Below are positions 4,845-19,178 of a stretch of DNA of 21,379 nt, piece after piece (the stretch's first letter is position 1; each line of letters opens with the position of its first letter). Position numbers and translations under genes: made by a program. The DNA comes from a virus. A model generated the notes under the pieces. That model worked only from the letters and a program-made list of their open reading frames with translations, made no database searches and was not told the origin of the DNA. Location of the stretch: positions 1 to 21,379 of IMG/VR virus record IMGVR_UViG_3300030117_001866. One strand, given 5' to 3'.

Positions 4845-4930
4845 TGGCAAAGACTTTACTACAAAAACTAGCTGAAGCTAAGAAACCTAAAAAGAAAAAT
4901 GCCAAAAAAGAGGAAAGTACCGAAGGATAA
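4844..4930 (+). CDS. 28-residue lysine-rich peptide
   Basis: This frame starts at ATG 4844, overlapping the preceding stop, and ends at TAA 4928-4930. The protein MAKTLLQKLAEAKKPKKKN, then AKKEESTEG, has a short amphipathic helix (TLLQKLAEAKK) followed by a basic run. An AAGGTGG sequence about ten bases upstream could serve as ribosome binding site. It overlaps the next gene by 32 nt. No function is recognised. It is part of a chain of small basic genes between the minor head protein and the scaffold. Confidence 0.5.
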   Translation: MAKTLLQKLAEAKKPKKKNAKKEESTEG

Positions 4931-5135
4931 AAAAACTGGCATACCAACAGCTTATTTGAAAGGTGCTAGAAACAAGTCAACAAAGGCTGCTGAAATAAAA
5001 CGTACTGCTGCACTTTACAAGGCAGGTAAGTATATTGATATTAAAGCTGTTCAAGAATCAAGGGTTAACCAAGATGTCACAAAAAAGTCGAAGAAGTCCA
5101 CTAAACGCCGCAACAAAAAAAGCACTAAGAGCTAA
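4899..5135 (+). CDS. small basic protein, 78 residues
   Basis: A lysine/arginine-rich protein beginning MPKKRKVPKDKKTGIPTAYL. Its middle (YLKGARNKSTKAAEIKRTAA, then LYKAGKYID) could form helices, and its tail is almost entirely K, S, T, R and N. It resembles small 'KYL-KR-RAAEIKR' proteins I recall in marine phages, so it is probably a genuine phage protein of unknown role, perhaps an internal DNA-binding head protein. It overlaps both neighbours in different frames (32 and 62 nt). The overlap with the next gene codes basic residues in both frames. Confidence 0.55.
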   Translation: MPKKRKVPKDKKTGIPTAYLKGARNKSTKAAEIKRTAALYKAGKYIDIKAVQESRVNQDVTKKSKKSTKRRNKKSTKS

Positions 5136-10015: not shown

Positions 10016-10441
10016 ATGGCAACAGCACTCAAAGGAGACGTAGGTAAAATTATGTTTCACAATGCAGCAGGTACAGAAGCTGATGTTGGAGCAACAAGAT
10101 CATGGTCTATGTCTATTAACAAAGATACACATGAAACTACAAAACAAGGCGACACTGCTAAAACATTTATTGGTGGTTTAATTTCTGGCGAAGGTTCAGT
10201 TGAACTTCTATACAATCCAAATGAAACTGGTGCTGCCTACACAAGTTTCATTGATGATGTTTTAACTACTGGTGATGCTGCAGATGCATTGTTTGAATTA
10301 TTTCCAGATTCAGCAACTTCTGCAAAAAAAATAAGTTTTTCTGGTGTTATTACTGGTGCAGAATATGGTGCAACATTAGGAGAGGTTCAAATGATAACAG
10401 TGAACTTTATTACATCAGGTGCCATTACTTCAGCTATATAG
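10016..10441 (+). CDS. major tail (tube) protein
   Basis: A 141-residue protein fitting the size and beta-rich make-up of siphophage tail tube subunits, which stack as hexamer rings along the tape measure. Visible pattern: an N-terminal strand with GDVGKIMFHN, then WSMSINKDTHETTKQGD (about 29-45), the loop TFIGGLISGEGSVELLYN (about 50-67), and the closing strands KKISFSGVITGAEY and EVQMITVNFITSG. 'T-HE-TK-GD' followed by a 'G-GS-E' strand is a known tube-protein signature. It precedes the gpG/gpGT chaperone pair, as in lambda. There is no Shine-Dalgarno sequence despite the high expected demand. Confidence 0.9.
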   Translation: MATALKGDVGKIMFHNAAGTEADVGATRSWSMSINKDTHETTKQGDTAKTFIGGLISGEGSVELLYNPNETGAAYTSFIDDVLTTGDAADALFELFPDSATSAKKISFSGVITGAEYGATLGEVQMITVNFITSGAITSAI

Positions 10442-10469
10442 TACATTAGGGTAATACAATAATTTTTAC

Positions 10470-10820
10470 ATGACAACAAAAAGAACCGTTGACATCATCA
10501 CTGAAGCTTTTAGTGATGTTATGTCTACAAGACGCAAATATGAATTAGAGTTGCCTTCTGGTCAAAAAATTGATATTTATTTTCCACCTTTAACTAGATA
10601 CGACAGACAAAAAGCACAAGCATCTGCTGGTACAGATAGTGCATTGTTGGTGTCCACACAATTACTTTGCCAAATGGCAGAAAAAGAAGATGGGTCAAAA
10701 ATGTTTTCTTTAGCAGATGCACCTGATCTTCAAAGAATGTTGCCAGAAAAAGTTTTAAATGATCTTGAGTTGTTTTTATTTGAAATTAAATTAGACGTTG
10801 ATACAGCAAAAAACGATTAA
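10470..10820 (+). CDS. tail assembly chaperone, short form (gpG-like)
   Basis: A 116-residue protein in the lambda gpG position between the tail tube and tape measure genes. It is mostly helical with a YELELPSGQKIDIYFPPLTR segment near residues 24-43. It should bind the tape measure and recruit tube subunits without being part of the virion. The stop TAA (10818-10820) comes two codons after the slippery site A AAA AAC (10808-10814), so most ribosomes make this short form while some shift to make the longer fusion. No Shine-Dalgarno sequence is visible before ATG 10470. Confidence 0.88.
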   Translation: MTTKRTVDIITEAFSDVMSTRRKYELELPSGQKIDIYFPPLTRYDRQKAQASAGTDSALLVSTQLLCQMAEKEDGSKMFSLADAPDLQRMLPEKVLNDLELFLFEIKLDVDTAKND

Positions 10821-10990
10821 AGAGAAATAACTGGCTTAACTTTGAGTTGTTTCTCGCAACTGAATTAGGTAAAACATTAAGTGAATTAAGAAAAAATATT
10901 ACTGAAGAGGAATTAATATATTGGGCAGCTTATTACGAAAATAAACACGAAAGCGAAAAAAGAATGCGTCAAAGAGCAAAAAACAGGTAG
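10470..10990 (+). CDS. tail assembly chaperone, -1 frameshift fusion (gpGT-like)
   Basis: This long form shares the first 115 codons with gpG, slips back one base at A AAA AAC, and continues from CGA at 10814 to TAG 10988-10990, adding 58 residues (173 in all). The added part reads RLKRNNWLNFELFLATELGK, then TLSELRKNITEEELIYWAAY and YENKHESEKRMRQ. This matches the usual gpT pattern: 'F-LA--LG-T--EL', then 'T--EL--W-AYY'. The extra frame has no start of its own near its 5' end (the first ATG is at about 10963), so it can only be made as a fusion. The gpT part normally binds tube subunits while gpG binds the tape measure. Confidence 0.88.
10808..10855 (+). promoter_or_regulatory. programmed -1 ribosomal frameshift signal
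   Basis: The slippery heptamer A AAA AAC (10808-10814) is in the correct phase of gpG (GCA AAA AAC). After a 7-nt spacer comes a stem of 11 pairs: GAGAAATAACT (10822-10832) with AGTTGTTTCTC (10845-10855). It has one U-G pair and a 12-nt loop. Heptamer, spacing and stem are all as expected for an efficient -1 signal. The gpG stop lies inside the spacer. Confidence 0.88.
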
Positions 10991-11016
10991 TATATAAGAA
11001 ATAGATTTTTTATATA
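10991..11016 (+). promoter_or_regulatory. AT-rich hairpin just before the tape measure start
   Basis: TATATAAGAAA (10991-11001) pairs with TTTTTTATATA (11006-11016) through 11 pairs, one of them G-U, around a TAGA loop. It fills the gap between gpGT and the GTG at 11022, ending five bases before it, where a ribosome would bind. It could lower tape measure translation. It has no following T-run of its own, so it is a poor terminator. TATATAAT at 11011-11018 could alternatively be a -10 box. Confidence 0.4.
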
Positions 11017-11021
11017 ATTAA

Positions 11022-13118
11022 GTGGCTGAAAGTATTGTTACCTTAAGAGTTGATACGAGAAAGGCAGTAAGCTCTCTTAATAATGCCTCAATAGCCAGTA
11101 AGAAATTATCAGTAGCTGCAAAAGGTACAACAGGAAGTTTACATGGTGCCTCTGCTGCTGCAACTGGTTTAGGTGCTTCATTAGCAAGTGCTTTAGGACC
11201 TATAATTGCTGTAAGTTCGGCTGTTACTTTACTTGGTAGATCATTAAGTGTATTTTCTAACAGAGAAAGAGATGCACAAATTCTTCTACAAGGTTTACAA
11301 AACTTAGGTCAAGGTCAACATACTTTAAATCAATTAACAGAGGCTGCAGATAGATTTGGTAATGCAACTTTATTTAGTCAAGATGATTTTACTAGAGGCT
11401 TTGCTCTATTAACAAGTTTTAGAAATATAGGGGTTGATGCTTACGAAAGGGTGGCTGAACAGGCAGCTAACATTGCACAAATAAATAATGTTGATGTCAG
11501 TACTTCCTTTATGCAATTAGCAAAAGCATTGGAAGACCCAGAAAGAAACTTATCAACTTTAAATCGTTCTGGTATTTCTTTTAGTAAGGAACAAACAGAG
11601 CTTATTAAGACATTGATGAAAACAAATCAAACAGCAAAAGCACATGCCTTGATTTTAGATATTGTACAAAAAGCTTATAATGATACAGCTATTGCTGCTG
11701 GTGAAGGATTTGCTGGTAATGTTGATAAGTTAGGAGAAACTTTTGACGATCTAAGTGAAAGTATAGGTAAAGGACTTTTGCCTGTATTAGACCCAGCAGT
11801 TAAAGGTTTAACAAAAATATTAGAATTTTTAAATTCTGAAGGTGGACAAGCAACAGCAATAATAGCTGGTATTGCTTTAGCTGCAAAAGGTATTTCTGTT
11901 GTAATGCCATTGGCTGTTACTGGGTTGGCTAATTTTGTTGTATCAACACAAGCTGCAGCAATATCATCTGCTTTAGCGGCAACTGGTTTAAAAGGTATGG
12001 CAGCAGCAAGTTATTTAGCTGCTGGTGGTATAACAAAAGCAACTATTGCCGTTCATGCTTTTAAAATAGCAATGGTTAAAACTGGTATTGGTGCATTAAT
12101 AGTTGGGTTGGGATTTTTAGCTGCAGCCATACTTAAAGCCAATAATGAACAAAAAGAATTTAATGAACTTTTAGAGACAGGTTCGTCTGCAGATATAACT
12201 GCACAAATAGATGCCACTAAAACAAAAATTGAAGAGTTAAATCAAGCGTTAGAAGATGCTCGTAGAATGGGTGGTCATGAAGGTAGAACAACAAGAGAAG
12301 GTTTAAAAGATGATATTGCAGAGGCAATAGAAAAAGCAGAAGAACTTGATATTGCACTTACTGAAGCAATAGAAAGAGAAAGAGTTGCAAAATTTGATAC
12401 TCAATTAAAGAATTTACAAAATATAAATGCTGAATTAGATAAAGAACTTAGATTAGGTGAAGAATTAACTGAACTTGATAGAATTAGAGCAGAAAGTGAA
12501 ATGGCAATAAATGCAATTATTGCAGAACATGGTGAGATAAAGGGTCAAGAATTAATTGACTTAGAAAAAGCTAATTTAAAACTAAAGGAACAAAAACTTA
12601 ATCAAGACCAAATTACAGAAGCAGCAAAAGAAACAAAACGTGTAATGGAACAATTAGGTGATTCTATTGCTACTGGCATATCAGATGCACTTGTTGATGT
12701 TTTAATGCATACACAGTCTATATCTCAAGCAGTTAATTCTCTTCTAAATGATATGGCAAGACAGTTTTTAAGACTTGGTATCAATACTGCTTTATTCTCA
12801 ATGTTCGGTGGAGCAGAGGGTATATTTAAAAATCTATCTACTTTTGCTGAGGGTGGCAGACCACCTGTTGGCAAAATGTCATTAGTGGGCGAAAAAGGAC
12901 CAGAATTATTTATACCAGATTCTGCTGGTACAATAATTCCAAATAATCAATTAGGTGGTGGTTCTGGATTTACAAGTAATATTATTGTTAATGTAGATGC
13001 AACTGGTTCTTCTGTTGAAGGTAATGAGGAGGAGAGTAGGAGTTTAGGGGCTGCTATTGCTACAGCAATACAAGCTGAAATCATACAACAAAAAAGACCC
13101 GGAGGTTTATTAGCATAA
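11022..13118 (+). CDS. tail tape measure protein
   Basis: A 698-residue protein that sets tail length and probably travels to the cell envelope at infection. The start is GTG 11022, without a Shine-Dalgarno sequence. The N-terminus (VDTRKAVSSLNNASIASKKL) is helical. Hydrophobic, possibly membrane-inserting stretches lie near residues 47-75, 274-320 and 351-371. A charged coiled-coil region spans about 390-545. The classic C-terminal tape-measure motif FAEGGRPPVGKMSLVGEKGP, then ELFIPDSAGTIIP, is at about 609-641. Using roughly 0.15 nm per residue, the tail would be near 100 nm. No lytic transglycosylase or peptidase domain is seen. It ends in TAATG with the gpM-like gene. Confidence 0.93.
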   Translation: MAESIVTLRVDTRKAVSSLNNASIASKKLSVAAKGTTGSLHGASAAATGLGASLASALGPIIAVSSAVTLLGRSLSVFSNRERDAQILLQGLQNLGQGQHTLNQLTEAADRFGNATLFSQDDFTRGFALLTSFRNIGVDAYERVAEQAANIAQINNVDVSTSFMQLAKALEDPERNLSTLNRSGISFSKEQTELIKTLMKTNQTAKAHALILDIVQKAYNDTAIAAGEGFAGNVDKLGETFDDLSESIGKGLLPVLDPAVKGLTKILEFLNSEGGQATAIIAGIALAAKGISVVMPLAVTGLANFVVSTQAAAISSALAATGLKGMAAASYLAAGGITKATIAVHAFKIAMVKTGIGALIVGLGFLAAAILKANNEQKEFNELLETGSSADITAQIDATKTKIEELNQALEDARRMGGHEGRTTREGLKDDIAEAIEKAEELDIALTEAIERERVAKFDTQLKNLQNINAELDKELRLGEELTELDRIRAESEMAINAIIAEHGEIKGQELIDLEKANLKLKEQKLNQDQITEAAKETKRVMEQLGDSIATGISDALVDVLMHTQSISQAVNSLLNDMARQFLRLGINTALFSMFGGAEGIFKNLSTFAEGGRPPVGKMSLVGEKGPELFIPDSAGTIIPNNQLGGGSGFTSNIIVNVDATGSSVEGNEEESRSLGAAIATAIQAEIIQQKRPGGLLA

Positions 13119-13690
13119 TGGCAACCTTTCCTTCTATAACACCAACCTATTCTGGTTTTAGTAAAAAATCAAAACCCGTAAAACGATTAATTAGATTTGC
13201 AGATGGATATGAGCAAAGAGTTTTGTTTGGGTTGGCATCACATCAAAATCCTAAAACATATTCATTCCAATTTGATGTTACAGAAACTGAGTCAGATGTA
13301 ATTGAAGCATTTTTAGATAGCAGAGCAAATGACCAAGCAAGTTTCACTTTTACACCACCGGGCGAAGGAGTTTCTAAAACTGGTACCTATGCACAGTCAT
13401 CTTCTACAACAATAACTGTTACTGTTACAAATCATGGTATTGCTATAGGCGAAACTGTAACTCTTGATTTCACCTCTGGTTCTGCTACTGATGGTAGTTT
13501 TATTGTTGCTACTGCTGCTGATCAAAATACATTTACCGTTACTGCATCATCAAGTGGTAGTAACAGTGGTAATGTAACTGTTACTGTATCTGGTGCTAAA
13601 CAATTTGTTTGTGAAAGCTGGTCAAAAGTTATTTACACTTCTAGCAGAGCAAGAATATCTACAACATTTAGGGAGGTGTTTGAACCATGA
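13118..13690 (+). CDS. minor tail protein gpM-like, with inserted beta domain
   Basis: A 190-residue protein in the lambda M position. The N-terminal part (SFQFDVTETESDVIEAFLDS, then DQASFTFTPPGEG, to about residue 84) and the C-terminal part (KQFVCESWSKVIYTSSRARI, to 190) together make the usual gpM fold of roughly 110 residues. Between them, about residues 87-157, lies an extra serine/threonine-rich beta domain: TGTYAQSSSTTITVTVTNHG, then VTLDFTSGSATDGSFIV and NTFTVTASSSGSNSGNVTV. A close relative of that domain is present in the gpJ-like protein of this window. The protein should form part of the tail tip between the tape measure and gpL. The insert probably projects outwards. Confidence 0.82.
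   Translation: MATFPSITPTYSGFSKKSKPVKRLIRFADGYEQRVLFGLASHQNPKTYSFQFDVTETESDVIEAFLDSRANDQASFTFTPPGEGVSKTGTYAQSSSTTITVTVTNHGIAIGETVTLDFTSGSATDGSFIVATAADQNTFTVTASSSGSNSGNVTVTVSGAKQFVCESWSKVIYTSSRARISTTFREVFEP
13672..13677 (+). promoter_or_regulatory. ribosome binding site of the gpL-like gene
   Basis: GGAGGT, a perfect Shine-Dalgarno core, lies inside the end of the gpM-like gene, nine bases before ATG 13687. It confirms the ATGA-overlapping start. Confidence 0.7.
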
Positions 13691-14262
13691 CCTCAAGTGT
13701 AATAAGTGATTCTCAAAGTATAAATCCTTCATCAATTATTGAGTTATTTGAATTAACTACAACTGCTGCAGTACATGGTTCTGCATCTACTTATAGATTT
13801 CATGCTGGGTCAAGTTTAAATGCCAATGGCGAAGTTGTATGGAAAGGTAATGCCTACCAAAGATTTCCTGTACAAGTAGATGGCTTTGCATATCAAAAAG
13901 GCCAGATACCAAGACCAACTCTAACTGTTAGTAATGTTCTTGGAACTATTACATCAATACTTCTTACTGTAAATCAAACAACAACTGGTAATGATTTAAC
14001 AGGTGCAACATTAACAAGAATCAGAACTTTGGCAAAATTTATTGATGCTGTTAATTTTGCAGGCAATGTAAATCCTTATGGAACACCAGATACAAATGCT
14101 GAATTTCCTCAAGAAATTTATTCGATTGATAGAAAATCACAGGAAACAAGAGAAATAGTAACATTTGAACTAGCTGCTCCTATTGATTTAGCTGGTGTTC
14201 GTGCGCCAAAGCGTCAATGTACTAGAGACGATTTTCCATCTATAGGTCGTATAAGAATATGA
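13687..14262 (+). CDS. minor tail protein gpL-like, lacking the Fe-S cysteine domain
   Basis: A 191-residue tail-tip protein in the lambda L position. Family features are the N-terminal IIELFELTTT strand, FHAGSSLNANGEVVWKGNAY (38-57), FAYQKGQIPRPTLTVSNVLG (67-86), the 'FIDAVNFAGNVNPYGTPD' segment (118-135), and IVTFELAAPIDLAGVRAPKR (157-176). Lambda gpL continues after 'P-R' with a C-terminal domain whose four cysteines hold an iron-sulfur cluster. Here only C178 remains and the protein stops 13 residues later (TRDDFPSIGRIRI). The following DNA encodes the next gene at once, with no cysteine-rich remnant in another frame. It is probably a natural variant without a cluster rather than a broken gene. 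Confidence 0.83.
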   Translation: MTSSVISDSQSINPSSIIELFELTTTAAVHGSASTYRFHAGSSLNANGEVVWKGNAYQRFPVQVDGFAYQKGQIPRPTLTVSNVLGTITSILLTVNQTTTGNDLTGATLTRIRTLAKFIDAVNFAGNVNPYGTPDTNAEFPQEIYSIDRKSQETREIVTFELAAPIDLAGVRAPKRQCTRDDFPSIGRIRI

Positions 14263-14960
14263 ATTGGAAACAAGATGCACTTACTCATGCAAAACAAGAG
14301 GACCCAAAAGAATCATGTGGTCTTTTATTAAATATTAAAGGTAAAGAAAAATATTTTCCCTGTCGTAATTTATCTATGACAGCATACCAATGTTTTATTT
14401 TAGACCCAGAAGATTATGTAAAGGCAGATAATACAGGTGATATTATTGCTGTAATTCATAGCCATCCTATAACTCCACCAGTTGCGAGCCAATCCGATAA
14501 AGTCGCTTGTGAGCAAAGCGGTCTTAAATGGCATATAGTAAATCCTAAAACAGAGTCATGGGGTTATTTAGAACCAACAGGCTATAAAGCGCCTATTATT
14601 GGCAGAGAATGGGCTTGGGGTGTTACAGACTGTTATACCTTAGTAAGAGATTGGTATAAAGAAACTTTAAATATTAATTTAAAAGATTGGCAAAGACCAA
14701 CAACACTTGATGATTTTAATAAAGATCCTATGTTTGAAAGATGTGCATGGCAAACTGGATTTAGAGAATTAAGACCTGATGAACAACTTAAAAACGGTGA
14801 TTTATTGTTTATGGCAATTTTAAGCAATAATTTAAATCATGTCGCAATTTTTTTAGATGGAGAGGTTTTACATCATTTAGCAGATAGAATATCTTGTAAA
14901 GAGCCATATAATGAATGGCTTTTAAAATGCACTGGTAAGAGGTTACGTTATGCTTCGTAA
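14259..14960 (+). CDS. tail tip peptidase, JAMM plus NlpC/P60 domains (gpK-like)
   Basis: A 233-residue two-domain protein like lambda gpK. The N-terminal half is a JAMM/MPN metallopeptidase: E18 in PKESCGLLL, H67 and H69 in AVIHSHP, then S77 and D80 completing HxHx(7)SxxD. The C-terminal half is an NlpC/P60 cysteine peptidase: C125 in WAWGVTDCYTLVRDWY, with H194 in LNHVAIFLDG and H205/H206 nearby. All catalytic residues appear intact. It may process tail-tip proteins during assembly or cut the peptidoglycan cross-links at DNA entry. It starts in an ATGA overlap with the gpL-like gene and overlaps the gpI-like gene by 11 nt. Confidence 0.9.
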   Translation: MNWKQDALTHAKQEDPKESCGLLLNIKGKEKYFPCRNLSMTAYQCFILDPEDYVKADNTGDIIAVIHSHPITPPVASQSDKVACEQSGLKWHIVNPKTESWGYLEPTGYKAPIIGREWAWGVTDCYTLVRDWYKETLNINLKDWQRPTTLDDFNKDPMFERCAWQTGFRELRPDEQLKNGDLLFMAILSNNLNHVAIFLDGEVLHHLADRISCKEPYNEWLLKCTGKRLRYAS

Positions 14961-15570
14961 ACTTAAGTTATATGGCGATCTAGCTAAAGTTACTGGTCAT
15001 AAAGAATTTGATGTTCAAGTTACAACTATTGCACAAGCTGTAAGTTTTTTAATTAATAACTTTCCTCATTTGGAAAGTTATATGTCTAATAGATATTACA
15101 AAATTTTAGTTGATAAAAACGAAACAGATATAGATGAATTACATTTTCCTGTTGGACAAAATGAAATAAAGTTTATCCCTGTTATTCAAGGTGCTGGCGG
15201 TAATATTGGGAAAATTATATTAGGTGGTGCTTTAATTGCAATGTCTTTTGGTGTAGGTGGTATATTTGGTGTAGGTGATGCACTTGCATTAGGCAGTAAA
15301 GGTTTTGGGTTTGCTTCTGCTAGTATGGGTGCAAAAGCTGCTTTTGGTATTGGTGCTGGATTATTACTTTCGGGTGTAAGCGGTATGCTATTTCCAGTAC
15401 CTAAACCACAAGAATTTAAATCTGAACAAGACCCTCAATTATCATTTAGCTTTAGTGGAACACAACAAACATCAAGGGCTGGAACACCTGTACCTATAGT
15501 TTATGGTGAAATATTTACTGGTTCTGTTGTAATTAGTGGTGGTATAGATACAGAACAGGTACAAGTATGA
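14950..15570 (+). CDS. tail assembly protein gpI-like
   Basis: A 206-residue protein in the lambda I position, after gpK and before gpJ. The N-terminal 80 residues look like the ubiquitin-like fold of the family (KLKLYGDLAKVTG, then FDVQVTTIAQAVSFLINNFP, and FPVGQNEIKFIPVIQGAGG). A glycine/alanine-rich hydrophobic middle (about 84-146) could make two membrane-like helices. The end (RAGTPVPIVYGEIFTGSVVI) is the common C-terminal motif. It probably helps assemble the tip and is absent from the finished tail, as in lambda. The start overlaps gpK, and the stop overlaps gpJ (ATGA). Confidence 0.88.
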   Translation: MLRKLKLYGDLAKVTGHKEFDVQVTTIAQAVSFLINNFPHLESYMSNRYYKILVDKNETDIDELHFPVGQNEIKFIPVIQGAGGNIGKIILGGALIAMSFGVGGIFGVGDALALGSKGFGFASASMGAKAAFGIGAGLLLSGVSGMLFPVPKPQEFKSEQDPQLSFSFSGTQQTSRAGTPVPIVYGEIFTGSVVISGGIDTEQVQV

Positions 15571-18500
15571 CAAAAAACCATAAAAATATTAGAGGTTTTG
15601 GTGGTCCACCTCCACCACCAGCACCAAGACAACCTACAAGAACGCCTGATACTTTACATAGTAAACAGTTTGCAACTTTTCTTGATCTAATATCAGAAGG
15701 TGAAATAGAAGGTTTTGCAACAGCATCAAAAGAAGGTAGAACACAAGGGTCAACTGCTTATAATAATGCTGCTTTTAAGGATATATTTTTAAATGATACA
15801 CCTATCTTAAAATCTTCTGCTGACTCAACAAACCCAGCAACTGCTGATTTTAATTATCAAGATATAACATTTACACCAAGATTTGGCACTGCAAACCAAA
15901 CAAAAATTGATGGTATTGAATCAAGTCAATCAACTATACCTGTTGGAGTAACAGTTACAAAAACTTCACCAGTTACAAGACAAATAACAAATACAGATGT
16001 TGATAGGATTAAAGTTTCGATTACTTTTCCACAAATACAAAAAGCTACTAATGAGGGAGATTTATTAGGTTCATCTGTACAATTTAAGATTTCTGTTCAA
16101 TATAATTCTGGTGGTTATACAGATGTGCATACTGATACTGTTACTGGACGAACTGCTGATGCCTACCAAAAAGATTTCTCAGTAAAAGTTACAGGGTCTT
16201 TTCCTGTAGATATAAGGGTTACAAGGATAACAGATGACAGTACTGATACTTCATTGATAGATAGTTTTCAATTTACAAGTTTTACTGAAATAATTGATGA
16301 CTCACAAACTTACGCAAACTCAGCATATACCTCACTAAGATTAGACTCCCAAACATTTTCATCTATACCATCAAGAAAATTTAGAATCAGAGGTATAAAA
16401 GTAAGAATACCGGGTGCTGGTGCATCAAGTTCTGGCACACCGACTGTTGATACTACAAATGGTAGAATTTCTTATCCTACTGGTTATATATTTAATGGTG
16501 TAATGGGTTCTGCTGTTTGGACTACTTGCCCTGCAATGATTTTATTAGATTTATTAACAAATACTAGATATGGGTTTGGAGATCATATAACAGATAGCAG
16601 TTTAGATTTATTTTCTTTTGTAACTGCTAGTAAGTATGCCAACACACTTGTTGATGATGGATTTGGTAGTCAAGAGGCTCGATTTAGTTGCAATGTAAAC
16701 ATACAATCTTCTAGTGAGGCATTTGACTTAATAAATGAACTAGCTGGTGTAATGAGATGCATGCCTATTTGGTCTGCTGGTAGTATTACCATTGCACAAG
16801 ACTCTCCTAAAGATGCAAGTTATCTTTTTAATCTAAGTAATATTACATCTGAAGGGTTTAGTTATTCTGGAAGTAGTTTAAAACAAAGACATACTGCTGT
16901 TGCTGTTTCATATTTTAATATGGATAGCCAAGAGGTTGATTATGAAGTTGTTGAAGATACAACAGCACAAGGTAAATTTGGAATAATTACAAAACAAGTA
17001 AAAGCATTTGGTTGCACCTCAAGAGGGCAAGCTGCAAGGTTAGGTAGAGCTATTTTGTTTGCAGAACAAAATGAATCTGAAATTGTTAGCTTTGCAACTT
17101 CAATAGATGCTGGTGCTATTGTCAGACCGGGTGCAATTATTGAAATTAATGACCCAGTACGAGCAGGGGTTAGAAGAGGTGGAAGATTATCTGCTGTTGC
17201 TTCAACTACCCAAATGACTGTTGATAATGTTAATGATACTGATTTGCCTACAACAAATAGCCCTACTTTTAGTGTTGTCTTACCAGATGGCACAGTGGAA
17301 ACAAAAGATGTTTCTAGTATTTCAAATGGAGTGGTGACAGTTAGTTCAGCTTTTTCTCAAACACCAAATGTAAATACTGTATGGTTATTACAAAATACAA
17401 CAGTTCAAGCAGAAAAATTCAGAGTTATAACCATTGAGGAAGTAGATCCTATTAGTTATGCAATAACTGCACTTTCATATAAATCTGGTAAATATGATTT
17501 TATTGAGGATGGCACAAGTTTACCAGCACGAAGTGTATCTGTTTTAAATGAACTTAAACCACCTCCATCAAACTTATCTGCTGTTGAAACTATTGTTCCA
17601 ATTAACAATCAAGCAGTTTCTAAAATTTTTATAAGTTGGCAACCGATTGTTGGTGTTATTGAATATCAGGTTAATTATCGTTTTGCTAATGGTAATTTTG
17701 TAAGTGAAAGAGTATCAAGACCAGATTTTCAAATAGTTAATAGTCAATTAGGTGTATATGAAATACAAGTTTTTAGTTATAACGTACAAGGCCAACTTTC
17801 TGCTACATCAAATGATTTAACATTTACTGCTGTAGGTAAAACTGCATTGCCACAAGATGTTTCAAACTTAACTGTTGAACCTGTTTCTAATCAATTTGTA
17901 AGATTACGTTTTAATAAAGCAACAGATGTAGATGTTACGCATGGTGGAAATATTGTGGTTAGGCATAGCAATATAACAGATGGAACTGGTACTTTTACAA
18001 ATTCAGTAGATATTATTCCAGCTTTGCCGGGCAATGTTTCTGAAACCCTTGTACCAGCACTAACAGGTGAGTATATTTTAAAATTTAGGGATGATGGTGG
18101 TCGTTTAAGTTCTGGTGAAACTTCTGTTGTTGTAACAGTACCAGACCCTGTACCACAACTTACTTTATTAACAGATAGAGAAGATACAGATGCAACACCT
18201 TTTAATGGAGCAAAAACAAACACTTTTTATAGTGCTGGTTTAGTAGGTCTTGTTTTAGATTCTTCAGTAAATATTGATGACGTTACTGCAAATATTGATA
18301 CACTAGGTTCTATTGATTTTCTTGGTGATATTGCATCTTCTGGTAAATATGATTTTGTTAGCACTATTGATTTTGGTGGCAAACAACCTGTTAATTTAAC
18401 TCGCCATATGGTTACAGAATCATTTTATCCTAATGATTTAATTGACCAAAGAACTGCTTTAATTGATGTTTGGACAGATATAGATGCCCAAACAGCATTT

Positions 18501-19178
18501 GATACTAATGCTCGTTTGTTAGTTGCTCAAACTGATTTAGACCCTGACTTATCGGTTTCAGCTACTTATGCACAATCTGGGACTACAATTACTGTTACAA
18601 AATCAAATCATGGGTATGTTGCTGGAAATGTTATTGTTGTCGATTTCACAAGCGGTACGGGTATTGATGGTGAATATGTAATCCAAAGTACCGGAAGCGT
18701 AAATGATTTTGTATTAACAGGAACTACAAGTCAAACAACAAGTGGTAATTGTACATATGGTGCGAATTTTACAGCTTTTGAACCAATGGCAAATGGTACT
18801 TTTATTGCTAGAGGTTTTAAGTTTAGAGCAGAATTAACAAGTGAAGATACAGCACAAAGTATTCTTATTAAACAATTAGGTTATAGTGCATCTTTAACAA
18901 GTCGCACTGAATCGCCAAGTAGTGTTATTGCTTCTGGTACCTCACGAAAGTCTGTGTCATTTACAAATACTTTTTTTACAGGCACTTCAGAGCTTGGTGG
19001 CTCTACAACAGCACATCTACCAACAATAGGAATTATTGTAGAAAATATGGAAAGTGGCGATTTCTTTAGTTTGCATAATATTACTGGTAGTGGTTTCGAT
19101 ATTGACATTAAAAATGGTTCAAGTTTTGTTAATAGGAATTTTAGATATACTGCTGTTGGTTTTGGTCGAGGCTCTTAA
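15567..19178 (+). CDS. central tail fibre / host specificity protein gpJ-like
   Basis: This 1203-residue protein forms the tail tip and likely contacts the host receptor. After a polyproline leader (GPPPPPAPRQP), the gpJ core starts with LDLISEGEIEGFATASKEG and FKDIFLNDTPILK. It continues with the structural domains up to about 660, including DLLTNTRYGFGDHI near 320-335 and RPGAIIEINDPVRAGVRRGG near 515-535. Two fibronectin type III-like domains follow (about 665-758 and 759-865). A beta domain at about 999-1068 (ATYAQSGTTITVTKSNHG, then VVDFTSGTGIDGEYVI) closely resembles the insert of the gpM-like protein. The C-terminal 130 residues are probably the receptor-facing part. It is the last gene of the M-L-K-I-J block. 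Confidence 0.93.
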   Translation: MTKNHKNIRGFGGPPPPPAPRQPTRTPDTLHSKQFATFLDLISEGEIEGFATASKEGRTQGSTAYNNAAFKDIFLNDTPILKSSADSTNPATADFNYQDITFTPRFGTANQTKIDGIESSQSTIPVGVTVTKTSPVTRQITNTDVDRIKVSITFPQIQKATNEGDLLGSSVQFKISVQYNSGGYTDVHTDTVTGRTADAYQKDFSVKVTGSFPVDIRVTRITDDSTDTSLIDSFQFTSFTEIIDDSQTYANSAYTSLRLDSQTFSSIPSRKFRIRGIKVRIPGAGASSSGTPTVDTTNGRISYPTGYIFNGVMGSAVWTTCPAMILLDLLTNTRYGFGDHITDSSLDLFSFVTASKYANTLVDDGFGSQEARFSCNVNIQSSSEAFDLINELAGVMRCMPIWSAGSITIAQDSPKDASYLFNLSNITSEGFSYSGSSLKQRHTAVAVSYFNMDSQEVDYEVVEDTTAQGKFGIITKQVKAFGCTSRGQAARLGRAILFAEQNESEIVSFATSIDAGAIVRPGAIIEINDPVRAGVRRGGRLSAVASTTQMTVDNVNDTDLPTTNSPTFSVVLPDGTVETKDVSSISNGVVTVSSAFSQTPNVNTVWLLQNTTVQAEKFRVITIEEVDPISYAITALSYKSGKYDFIEDGTSLPARSVSVLNELKPPPSNLSAVETIVPINNQAVSKIFISWQPIVGVIEYQVNYRFANGNFVSERVSRPDFQIVNSQLGVYEIQVFSYNVQGQLSATSNDLTFTAVGKTALPQDVSNLTVEPVSNQFVRLRFNKATDVDVTHGGNIVVRHSNITDGTGTFTNSVDIIPALPGNVSETLVPALTGEYILKFRDDGGRLSSGETSVVVTVPDPVPQLTLLTDREDTDATPFNGAKTNTFYSAGLVGLVLDSSVNIDDVTANIDTLGSIDFLGDIASSGKYDFVSTIDFGGKQPVNLTRHMVTESFYPNDLIDQRTALIDVWTDIDAQTAFDTNARLLVAQTDLDPDLSVSATYAQSGTTITVTKSNHGYVAGNVIVVDFTSGTGIDGEYVIQSTGSVNDFVLTGTTSQTTSGNCTYGANFTAFEPMANGTFIARGFKFRAELTSEDTAQSILIKQLGYSASLTSRTESPSSVIASGTSRKSVSFTNTFFTGTSELGGSTTAHLPTIGIIVENMESGDFFSLHNITGSGFDIDIKNGSSFVNRNFRYTAVGFGRGS

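Follow-up and report, generated by a model that had tools for sequence, protein, structure and literature searches.

A predicted lambda-type programmed -1 ribosomal frameshift site with a conserved RNA hairpin in the tail module of an uncultivated marine phage

Introduction

Does the gpG-like tail gene of an uncultivated marine phage end with its open reading frame, or do some ribosomes slip at an A-rich heptamer and continue in the -1 frame? The question was raised by an IMG/VR viral record of 21,379 bases with a head and tail module (the window, meaning the whole stretch of DNA analysed), for which the original prediction had proposed a complete -1 frameshift signal giving a gpG/gpGT pair. 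In phage lambda, where gpG outnumbers gpGT by about 30 to 1, the two proteins bind the tape measure protein, and contact with the major tail protein is through the T part; this mechanism and its wide conservation are covered in excerpts of the Atkins 2016 review (PMC5009743). No report of frameshifting in the cyanophages related to the window was found in listings of open PMC papers, nor by a word search of PMC7852597.

Sequence data and comparative analyses

Relatives of the site were collected by scans of IMG/VR, each contributing its best 80 loci at most, and by searches of phage records. They were sorted into four groups, the names of which were taken from the window or from isolates (near, S-H1, MED4-184 and KBS-S-2A). 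Since some contigs were collected twice, the distinct 115-nt context was used as the unit of counting; locus L365, which had no gpG match, and loci L086, L087 and L088 are not part of the context counts. Comparisons over 62 nt were done with distinct sites only (84 near, 54 S-H1-group, 17 KBS-S-2A-group and 25 MED4-184-group sites), and seven KBS-S-2A-group contexts without the heptamer were excluded from these. The -1 frame was counted as open if it extended at least 140 nt beyond the gpG stop.

The stability of the stem was compared with that of shuffled sequences. A null model in which the gpT protein and codon usage were kept was preferred over dinucleotide shuffling. Covariation was evaluated on a quick tree calculated from gpG only, which lies upstream of the site.

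Anatomy of the site

The putative gpG-like tail assembly chaperone was encoded in the zero frame at 10470..10820 (116 aa; plus strand, as are all features with coordinates in this section and the next) according to ORF translation and PHROG profiles. The codons at its end read GCA AAA AAC GAT TAA. The slippery heptamer A_AAA_AAC was read in gpG phase at 10808..10814 and was followed by the 7-nt spacer GATTAAA (10815..10821), which contains the gpG stop codon TAA at 10818-10820. Programmed -1 frameshift signals leave about 5-9 nt between heptamer and structure, and the 7-nt spacer falls in this range. The putative stimulatory stem was formed by the 5' arm GAGAAATAACT at 10822..10832 (assigned by folding, covariation and codon-preserving shuffles), a loop of 12 nt at 10833..10844 and the 3' arm AGTTGTTTCTC at 10845..10855 (assigned by folding), which contains the rare leucine codon CTC at 10853-10855. 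RNAfold gave a free energy of -13.1 kcal/mol; of the 11 stem pairs, one is a U.G wobble (10828/10849), and one isolated pair was added within the loop. The in-phase heptamer, the stop-containing spacer and the 11-bp stem around a 12-nt loop were therefore all present as originally predicted, with the wobble counted among the eleven pairs.

The gpT part was located in the -1 frame at 10814..10990, as indicated by translation, PHROG profiles and similarity to HK97 gp14. It starts with CGA at 10814-10816 and ends with a stop at 10988-10990; the length of 58 residues and the 173 residues of the gpGT fusion, obtained by translating gpG together with the -1 frame, agreed with the prediction. The prediction had also described gpT as having no start codon. 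This was inexact: a TTG at 10847 within the gpT frame opens an ORF of 47 aa, shorter than usual length cut-offs, though most relatives have another codon at this position (TTG 24, TTT 57, TTA 2 and TTC 1 among the 84 near sites listed). With TTG in 24 of these 84 sites, no start codon is conserved in the overlapping -1 ORF.

Gene neighbourhood and similarity of the products

The gpG/gpT pair sits between a major tail protein gene upstream (10016..10441; PHROG 10528, E 9.9e-39) and a tape measure protein gene downstream (11022..13118; PHROG 27166, E 2.1e-17; PF06791, 31.1 bits versus a cut-off of 30.2), as lambda-type pairs do. gpG matched PHROG 20784, a family of unknown function (E 6.5e-27), and gave a weak match to the tail assembly chaperone family PHROG 344 (E 0.023). 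gpT matched two tail protein families, PHROG 14766 (E 6e-8) and PHROG 337 (E 1.6e-7), and was similar to the HK97 gp14 region (E 4e-3). In the Pfam search no family was obtained for gpG and only a Med26 match below the cut-off for gpT, and the NCBIfam search of the gpGT fusion matched no family.

Conservation of heptamer and frames in relatives

The near group comprised at least 160 loci and at least 107 contexts, window included. An in-phase heptamer was present in 107 of 107 contexts among the matches listed (A_AAA_AAC in 73, A_AAA_AAA in 34). The S-H1 group (at least 81 loci and at least 64 contexts) had the in-phase A_AAA_AAC in 64/64, and the codon preceding the heptamer was GCA in every one of the 107 near and 64 S-H1-group contexts listed. 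In the KBS-S-2A group (at least 38 loci, at least 27 contexts) the heptamer was found in 20/27, and in the MED4-184 group (at least 82 loci, at least 66 contexts) in 0/66.

The -1 frame was open in 159/160 near loci and in 80/81 S-H1-group loci among the matches listed, the one remaining locus ending with its contig in each case. Among the matches listed for the MED4-184 group it was open in 78/82 loci, with three cut by contig ends and one (L301) truly short. The corresponding count for the KBS-S-2A group was 25 of the 38 loci listed; two were cut by contig ends and eleven had a truly short -1 frame past the gpG stop (L349, L350, L352-L356, L358, L359, L362 and L363). In these eleven, which are more distant relatives, the shift may take place elsewhere or in another direction. 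The gpG stop lay inside the spacer in 91/107 near contexts; the other near contexts listed end gpG 18 nt later, and the spacer stop is thus not essential.

In the isolates MED4-184, MED4-117 and S-H1, gpT is likewise in the -1 frame, and among the near sites gpT varied synonymously around a conserved protein. The relatives thus support the frameshift reading of the gpG/gpGT pair through heptamer and -1 frame, and through the covariation described below. Five cyanophage records lack the gpT half or do not join it to gpG: it is absent as a gene from those of MED4-184, MED4-117, KBS-S-2A and P-HS2, and in that of S-H1 it is given as a separate hypothetical protein.

Chance expectation and stem stability

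The window is AT-rich (GC content 35.3%), and the heptamer as such is common there. Nine copies of A_AAA_AAC were counted on both strands versus 14.8 expected, so the heptamer alone is not above chance. One of the copies, in gpT phase at 10978-10984, lies one codon ahead of the gpT stop. Among the matches listed, a copy at the gpT end was found in 31 of the 106 near contexts with the gpT end in view, and in 0/63 S-H1-group, 0/62 MED4-184-group and 0/25 KBS-S-2A-group contexts; it was rejected as a signal and taken as a by-product of the lysine-rich gpT end.

Against dinucleotide shuffles the window stem had a z of -1.9, and 9/200 shuffles were equally stable. Shuffles constrained to the gpT protein and to group codon usage gave a z of -3.14 (1/200 equally stable), and those constrained to the same protein and to the usage of the gene pair itself gave a z of -3.8 (0/500). 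Sites at which at most 5% of codon-preserving shuffles were equally stable numbered 80/84 in the near group, 54/54 in the S-H1 group, 14/17 in the KBS-S-2A group and 19/25 in the MED4-184 group (distinct sites among the matches listed); the sites are related by descent and hence are not independent tests. A search of 10400-11100 against Rfam yielded two matches, both under their gathering scores.

Selection on the stem as RNA

Alignment of the 84 distinct near sites among the matches listed revealed two registers of the stem. In the first, which is that of the window, the pairing arms are GAGAAATAACT and AGTTGTTTCTC; in the second, pairing is between GCGAGA and TCTCGC, shifted outwards by two bases, and between AACT and AGTT. 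The full second register (10 pairs) was present in 47 and the full first register (11 pairs) in 26 of the 84 near sites listed. At least nine stem pairs were formed in one register or the other in 83 of these 84, the exception being L159 with eight pairs. Locus L165 (L165:1542-1603) has a gpG at the base of the second-register branch, yet a window-type stem at the frameshift site; this mismatch reflects either the retention of an earlier state or recombination close by.

Two column pairs of the near group changed on both sides. Columns 18 and 45 formed A-U in 66, G-C in 11 and G-U in 7 sites, counted over all 84 near sites listed although 18-45 pairs in the first register only; columns 24 and 39 formed C-G in 72, U-A in 7 and U-G in 4 sites and were unpaired in one. 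All four columns fall on the third positions of gpT codons. The double changes at 24-39 exchanged AAC or AGC with GAG for AAT or AGT with GAA in 7/7 cases, which kept Asn or Ser together with Glu. Those at 18-45 were AGG with TTC in 5/11 cases (Arg and Phe kept) and GGG with TTC in 6/11 (Gly). Position 21-42 was unpaired in 58 of the 84 near sites listed.

On the gpG tree, at least 9 changes were required in column 24, at least 8 in column 39, at least 10 in column 18 and at least 4 in column 45. Within supported pairs the partner column never moved the opposite way. Supported pairs were few, and the tree-based sign tests stayed above 0.05 (median p 0.0625 and 0.125 for 39/24, 0.25 and 0.5 for 45/18).

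Codon choice in the stem pointed in the same direction. CTC makes up 1.4% of the leucine codons of the window; in the 3' arm it was used in 78/83 and CTA in 5/83 sites listed, window included. GAG accounts for 20% of the glutamate codons and was used in the stem in 75/83 sites listed, and AAC accounts for 24% of the asparagine codons and was used in 62 of the 69 listed sites with Asn at that position. Shuffles, covariation and codon choice together argue that the stem of the near group is under selection as RNA.

In the KBS-S-2A group, five pairs showed double changes, and 94.6% of cells were pairing versus 87.0% in shuffles. In the S-H1 group the named structure covaried no better than shuffles, and RNAalifold gave 11 pairs with 0 changed on both sides. 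Because covariation did not exceed shuffles there, the S-H1-group structure is claimed only from the codon-preserving shuffles and from the stem base GCAG/CTGC, which was invariant among the matches listed. The near, S-H1 and KBS-S-2A alignments agree in the column of the stem base. Covariation in relatives, proposed with the original prediction as a check, was accordingly observed at two pairs of the near group and at five of the KBS-S-2A group, and at none above shuffles in the S-H1 group.

Alternative explanations

Joining of the two frames at the level of the mRNA is very unlikely. The polymerase would have to stutter on the A run, producing mRNAs that join gpG and gpT, and the hairpin would help by forming in the exit channel. 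Excerpts of the Atkins review do describe nascent stem-loops that stimulate polymerase slippage (PMC5009743). The A run has six residues in the window, and six, seven and eight in 73, 29 and 5 of the 107 near contexts listed, respectively. However, six A are a short run for polymerase slippage. In the S-H1 group the run was exactly six in 64/64 contexts listed, so that a long conserved homopolymer is lacking there, and in the MED4-184 group it was only three in 66/66 contexts listed, with gpT still in the -1 frame. The start of the stem 7 nt past the heptamer, moreover, is like that of ribosomal frameshift sites as generally known.

Still less credence is given to gpT as a separate protein translated from a start of its own at the in-frame TTG (10847), which the stem would hide or uncover. 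The codon does open the 47-aa ORF, but it is present in just the 24 of 84 distinct near sites listed above, and initiation there would lose the conserved stretch around NNWLNFE. The chance that gpG simply ends at its own stop and that the -1 frame is a relic of gene decay (a pseudogene) or of misreading (a sequencing error) is close to nil. The junction does contain a homopolymer, where errors arise; against this, identical frames and heptamer were found in at least 107 distinct contexts, the three isolates named above have gpT in the -1 frame as well, and gpT varies synonymously while its protein stays conserved. A sequencing error in the run of six A, which the original prediction had named as a risk, is excluded because many separate contigs, and isolates too, show this arrangement.

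A possible alternative slip site in the MED4-184 branch

The MED4-184 group (L082, L083 and L248-L327) had the sequence NNA_AAG_GAA_TCY_TAA at the gpG stop in 66/66 contexts among the matches listed. The codon before AAG was GCA in 32, GTA in 19, ACA in 14 and ATA in 1 of the 66 contexts listed. As the longest A run is three in these contexts, slippage on a heptamer or stuttering of the polymerase is unlikely in this group. A -1 stop is located just upstream, which confines the shift to a few codons at the gpG end. The hairpin was weaker, with -7.6 to -10.4 kcal/mol over the 66 contexts listed and a median z of -2.16 over 25 sites.

According to excerpts of the Atkins review, NNA_AAG is a known slip site at which one tRNA re-pairs, and it is used by IS1222 (PMC5009743). 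The tetranucleotide is in phase in the MED4-184 branch, not in the window; IS1222 encodes a transposase, and here a tail gene is concerned. It is quite possible, though it falls a little short of probable, that the slip mechanism was exchanged under a kept hairpin within one marine cyanosiphovirus lineage. The window and S-H1 branches would use tandem slippage of two tRNAs on GCA_AAA_AAC or GCA_AAA_AAA, and the branch of MED4-184, MED4-117 and P-HS2 would have lost the heptamer and would use a single lysine tRNA on NNA_AAG. If so, the branches may differ in how the gpG:gpGT ratio is maintained. This swap in the sister branch is the one point that a specialist might take up.

Comparison with known systems

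The locus resembles lambda G/T in gene order, in a -1 shift near the gpG end, in the gpT domain and in the small fraction of fusion product expected. It differs in that lambda has G_GGA_AAG and 48 nt downstream without excess structure (z +0.9), whereas the window has A_AAA_AAC and a conserved hairpin. Excess downstream structure was likewise absent from KS9 (z -0.1), Bcep176 (z +1.5) and P2 (z -0.55) in codon-preserving shuffles, where the anchor for KS9 and Bcep176 was not an annotated site and instead was the last in-phase heptamer found by script, 40 nt before the gpG stop. S-2L had a z of -0.9 at an arbitrary anchor, no in-phase heptamer having been found, and AG-345-A17 was left out of the shuffles because its -1 frame was closed at the chosen anchor.

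HK97 gave -22.4 kcal/mol and a z of -4.1, stronger than the window, also at an arbitrary anchor as no in-phase heptamer was found. The window hairpin thus stands out from lambda, KS9, Bcep176 and P2, and not from HK97, within a small reference set. The signal had been called unusually well formed; this description holds against the former four and fails against HK97. The HK97 gp13/gp14 pair is otherwise alike in the gpT similarity already given, in an annotated -1 frameshift and in the strong downstream structure at the arbitrary anchor. It differs in the codons near the gpG end, which are CGG GAA AAG TCT, with no in-phase X_XXY_YYZ heptamer. For an HK97-like cluster, two genes with 6 and 7% frameshifting are recorded in PMC3711429.

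The haloarchaeal virus HCTV-2 has the same heptamer, A_AAA_AAC, in the same gene pair (g-t), with an archaeal host (PMC5009743, excerpts). An A-rich heptamer followed by a stem-loop is also the arrangement of E. coli dnaX, the heptamer of which is A_AAA_AAG (PMC5009743, excerpts).

Proposed mechanism

The site is, with high confidence, a lambda G/GT-type signal for programmed -1 ribosomal frameshifting, producing gpG and a predicted gpGT of 173 residues. This assignment is based on what was seen of the anatomy, the conservation, the selection on the RNA stem, the gene order and the gpT similarity. Structure follows the slip site, as does the stem-loop 3' of the dnaX heptamer; the upstream Shine-Dalgarno-like stimulator of dnaX is a point of difference. 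Judged from its sequence, the feature agrees with the lambda type in position, frames, heptamer, spacer and structure, and would be an ordinary example, well supported here, of a mechanism already known. The slippage, its rate and the roles of gpG and gpGT are what we infer from the anatomy and from lambda.

Most ribosomes would terminate at the spacer TAA and release gpG. A minority would pause at the hairpin with AAA in the P site and AAC in the A site; both tRNAs would then slip one base back onto AAA AAA, and translation in the -1 frame would yield gpGT as the minor product. Both proteins would serve as chaperones of tail assembly, in the way reported for lambda: the G part would bind the tape measure protein, and recruitment of the major tail protein would fall to the T part. 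Counted against this explanation is that A_AAA_AAC slips less than A_AAA_AAG in E. coli (PMC5009743, excerpts). The lower slipperiness may be the reason for which the hairpin has been kept in the near group.

The comparative data argue strongly for the use of a lambda-type frameshift with a selected RNA hairpin in an uncultivated marine phage group. The at least 264 distinct natural contexts, with their stem variants and the slip-site swap, represent a test bed for control of the product ratio by stem stability and slip site.

Other features of the window

Among the tail genes beyond the tape measure gene, the proteins encoded at 13118-13690 and 15567-19178 share a module of 70 residues (44% identical, E 2e-11), and the baseplate PHROG match of the former falls in this module. 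The product of 14259-14960, which we take to be perhaps a lambda gpK-like protein, matched a desampylase model with its N-terminal part, far under the cut-off of that model. A small basic ORF with the N-terminal start MPKKRKVPKDKKTG was located at 4899-5135.
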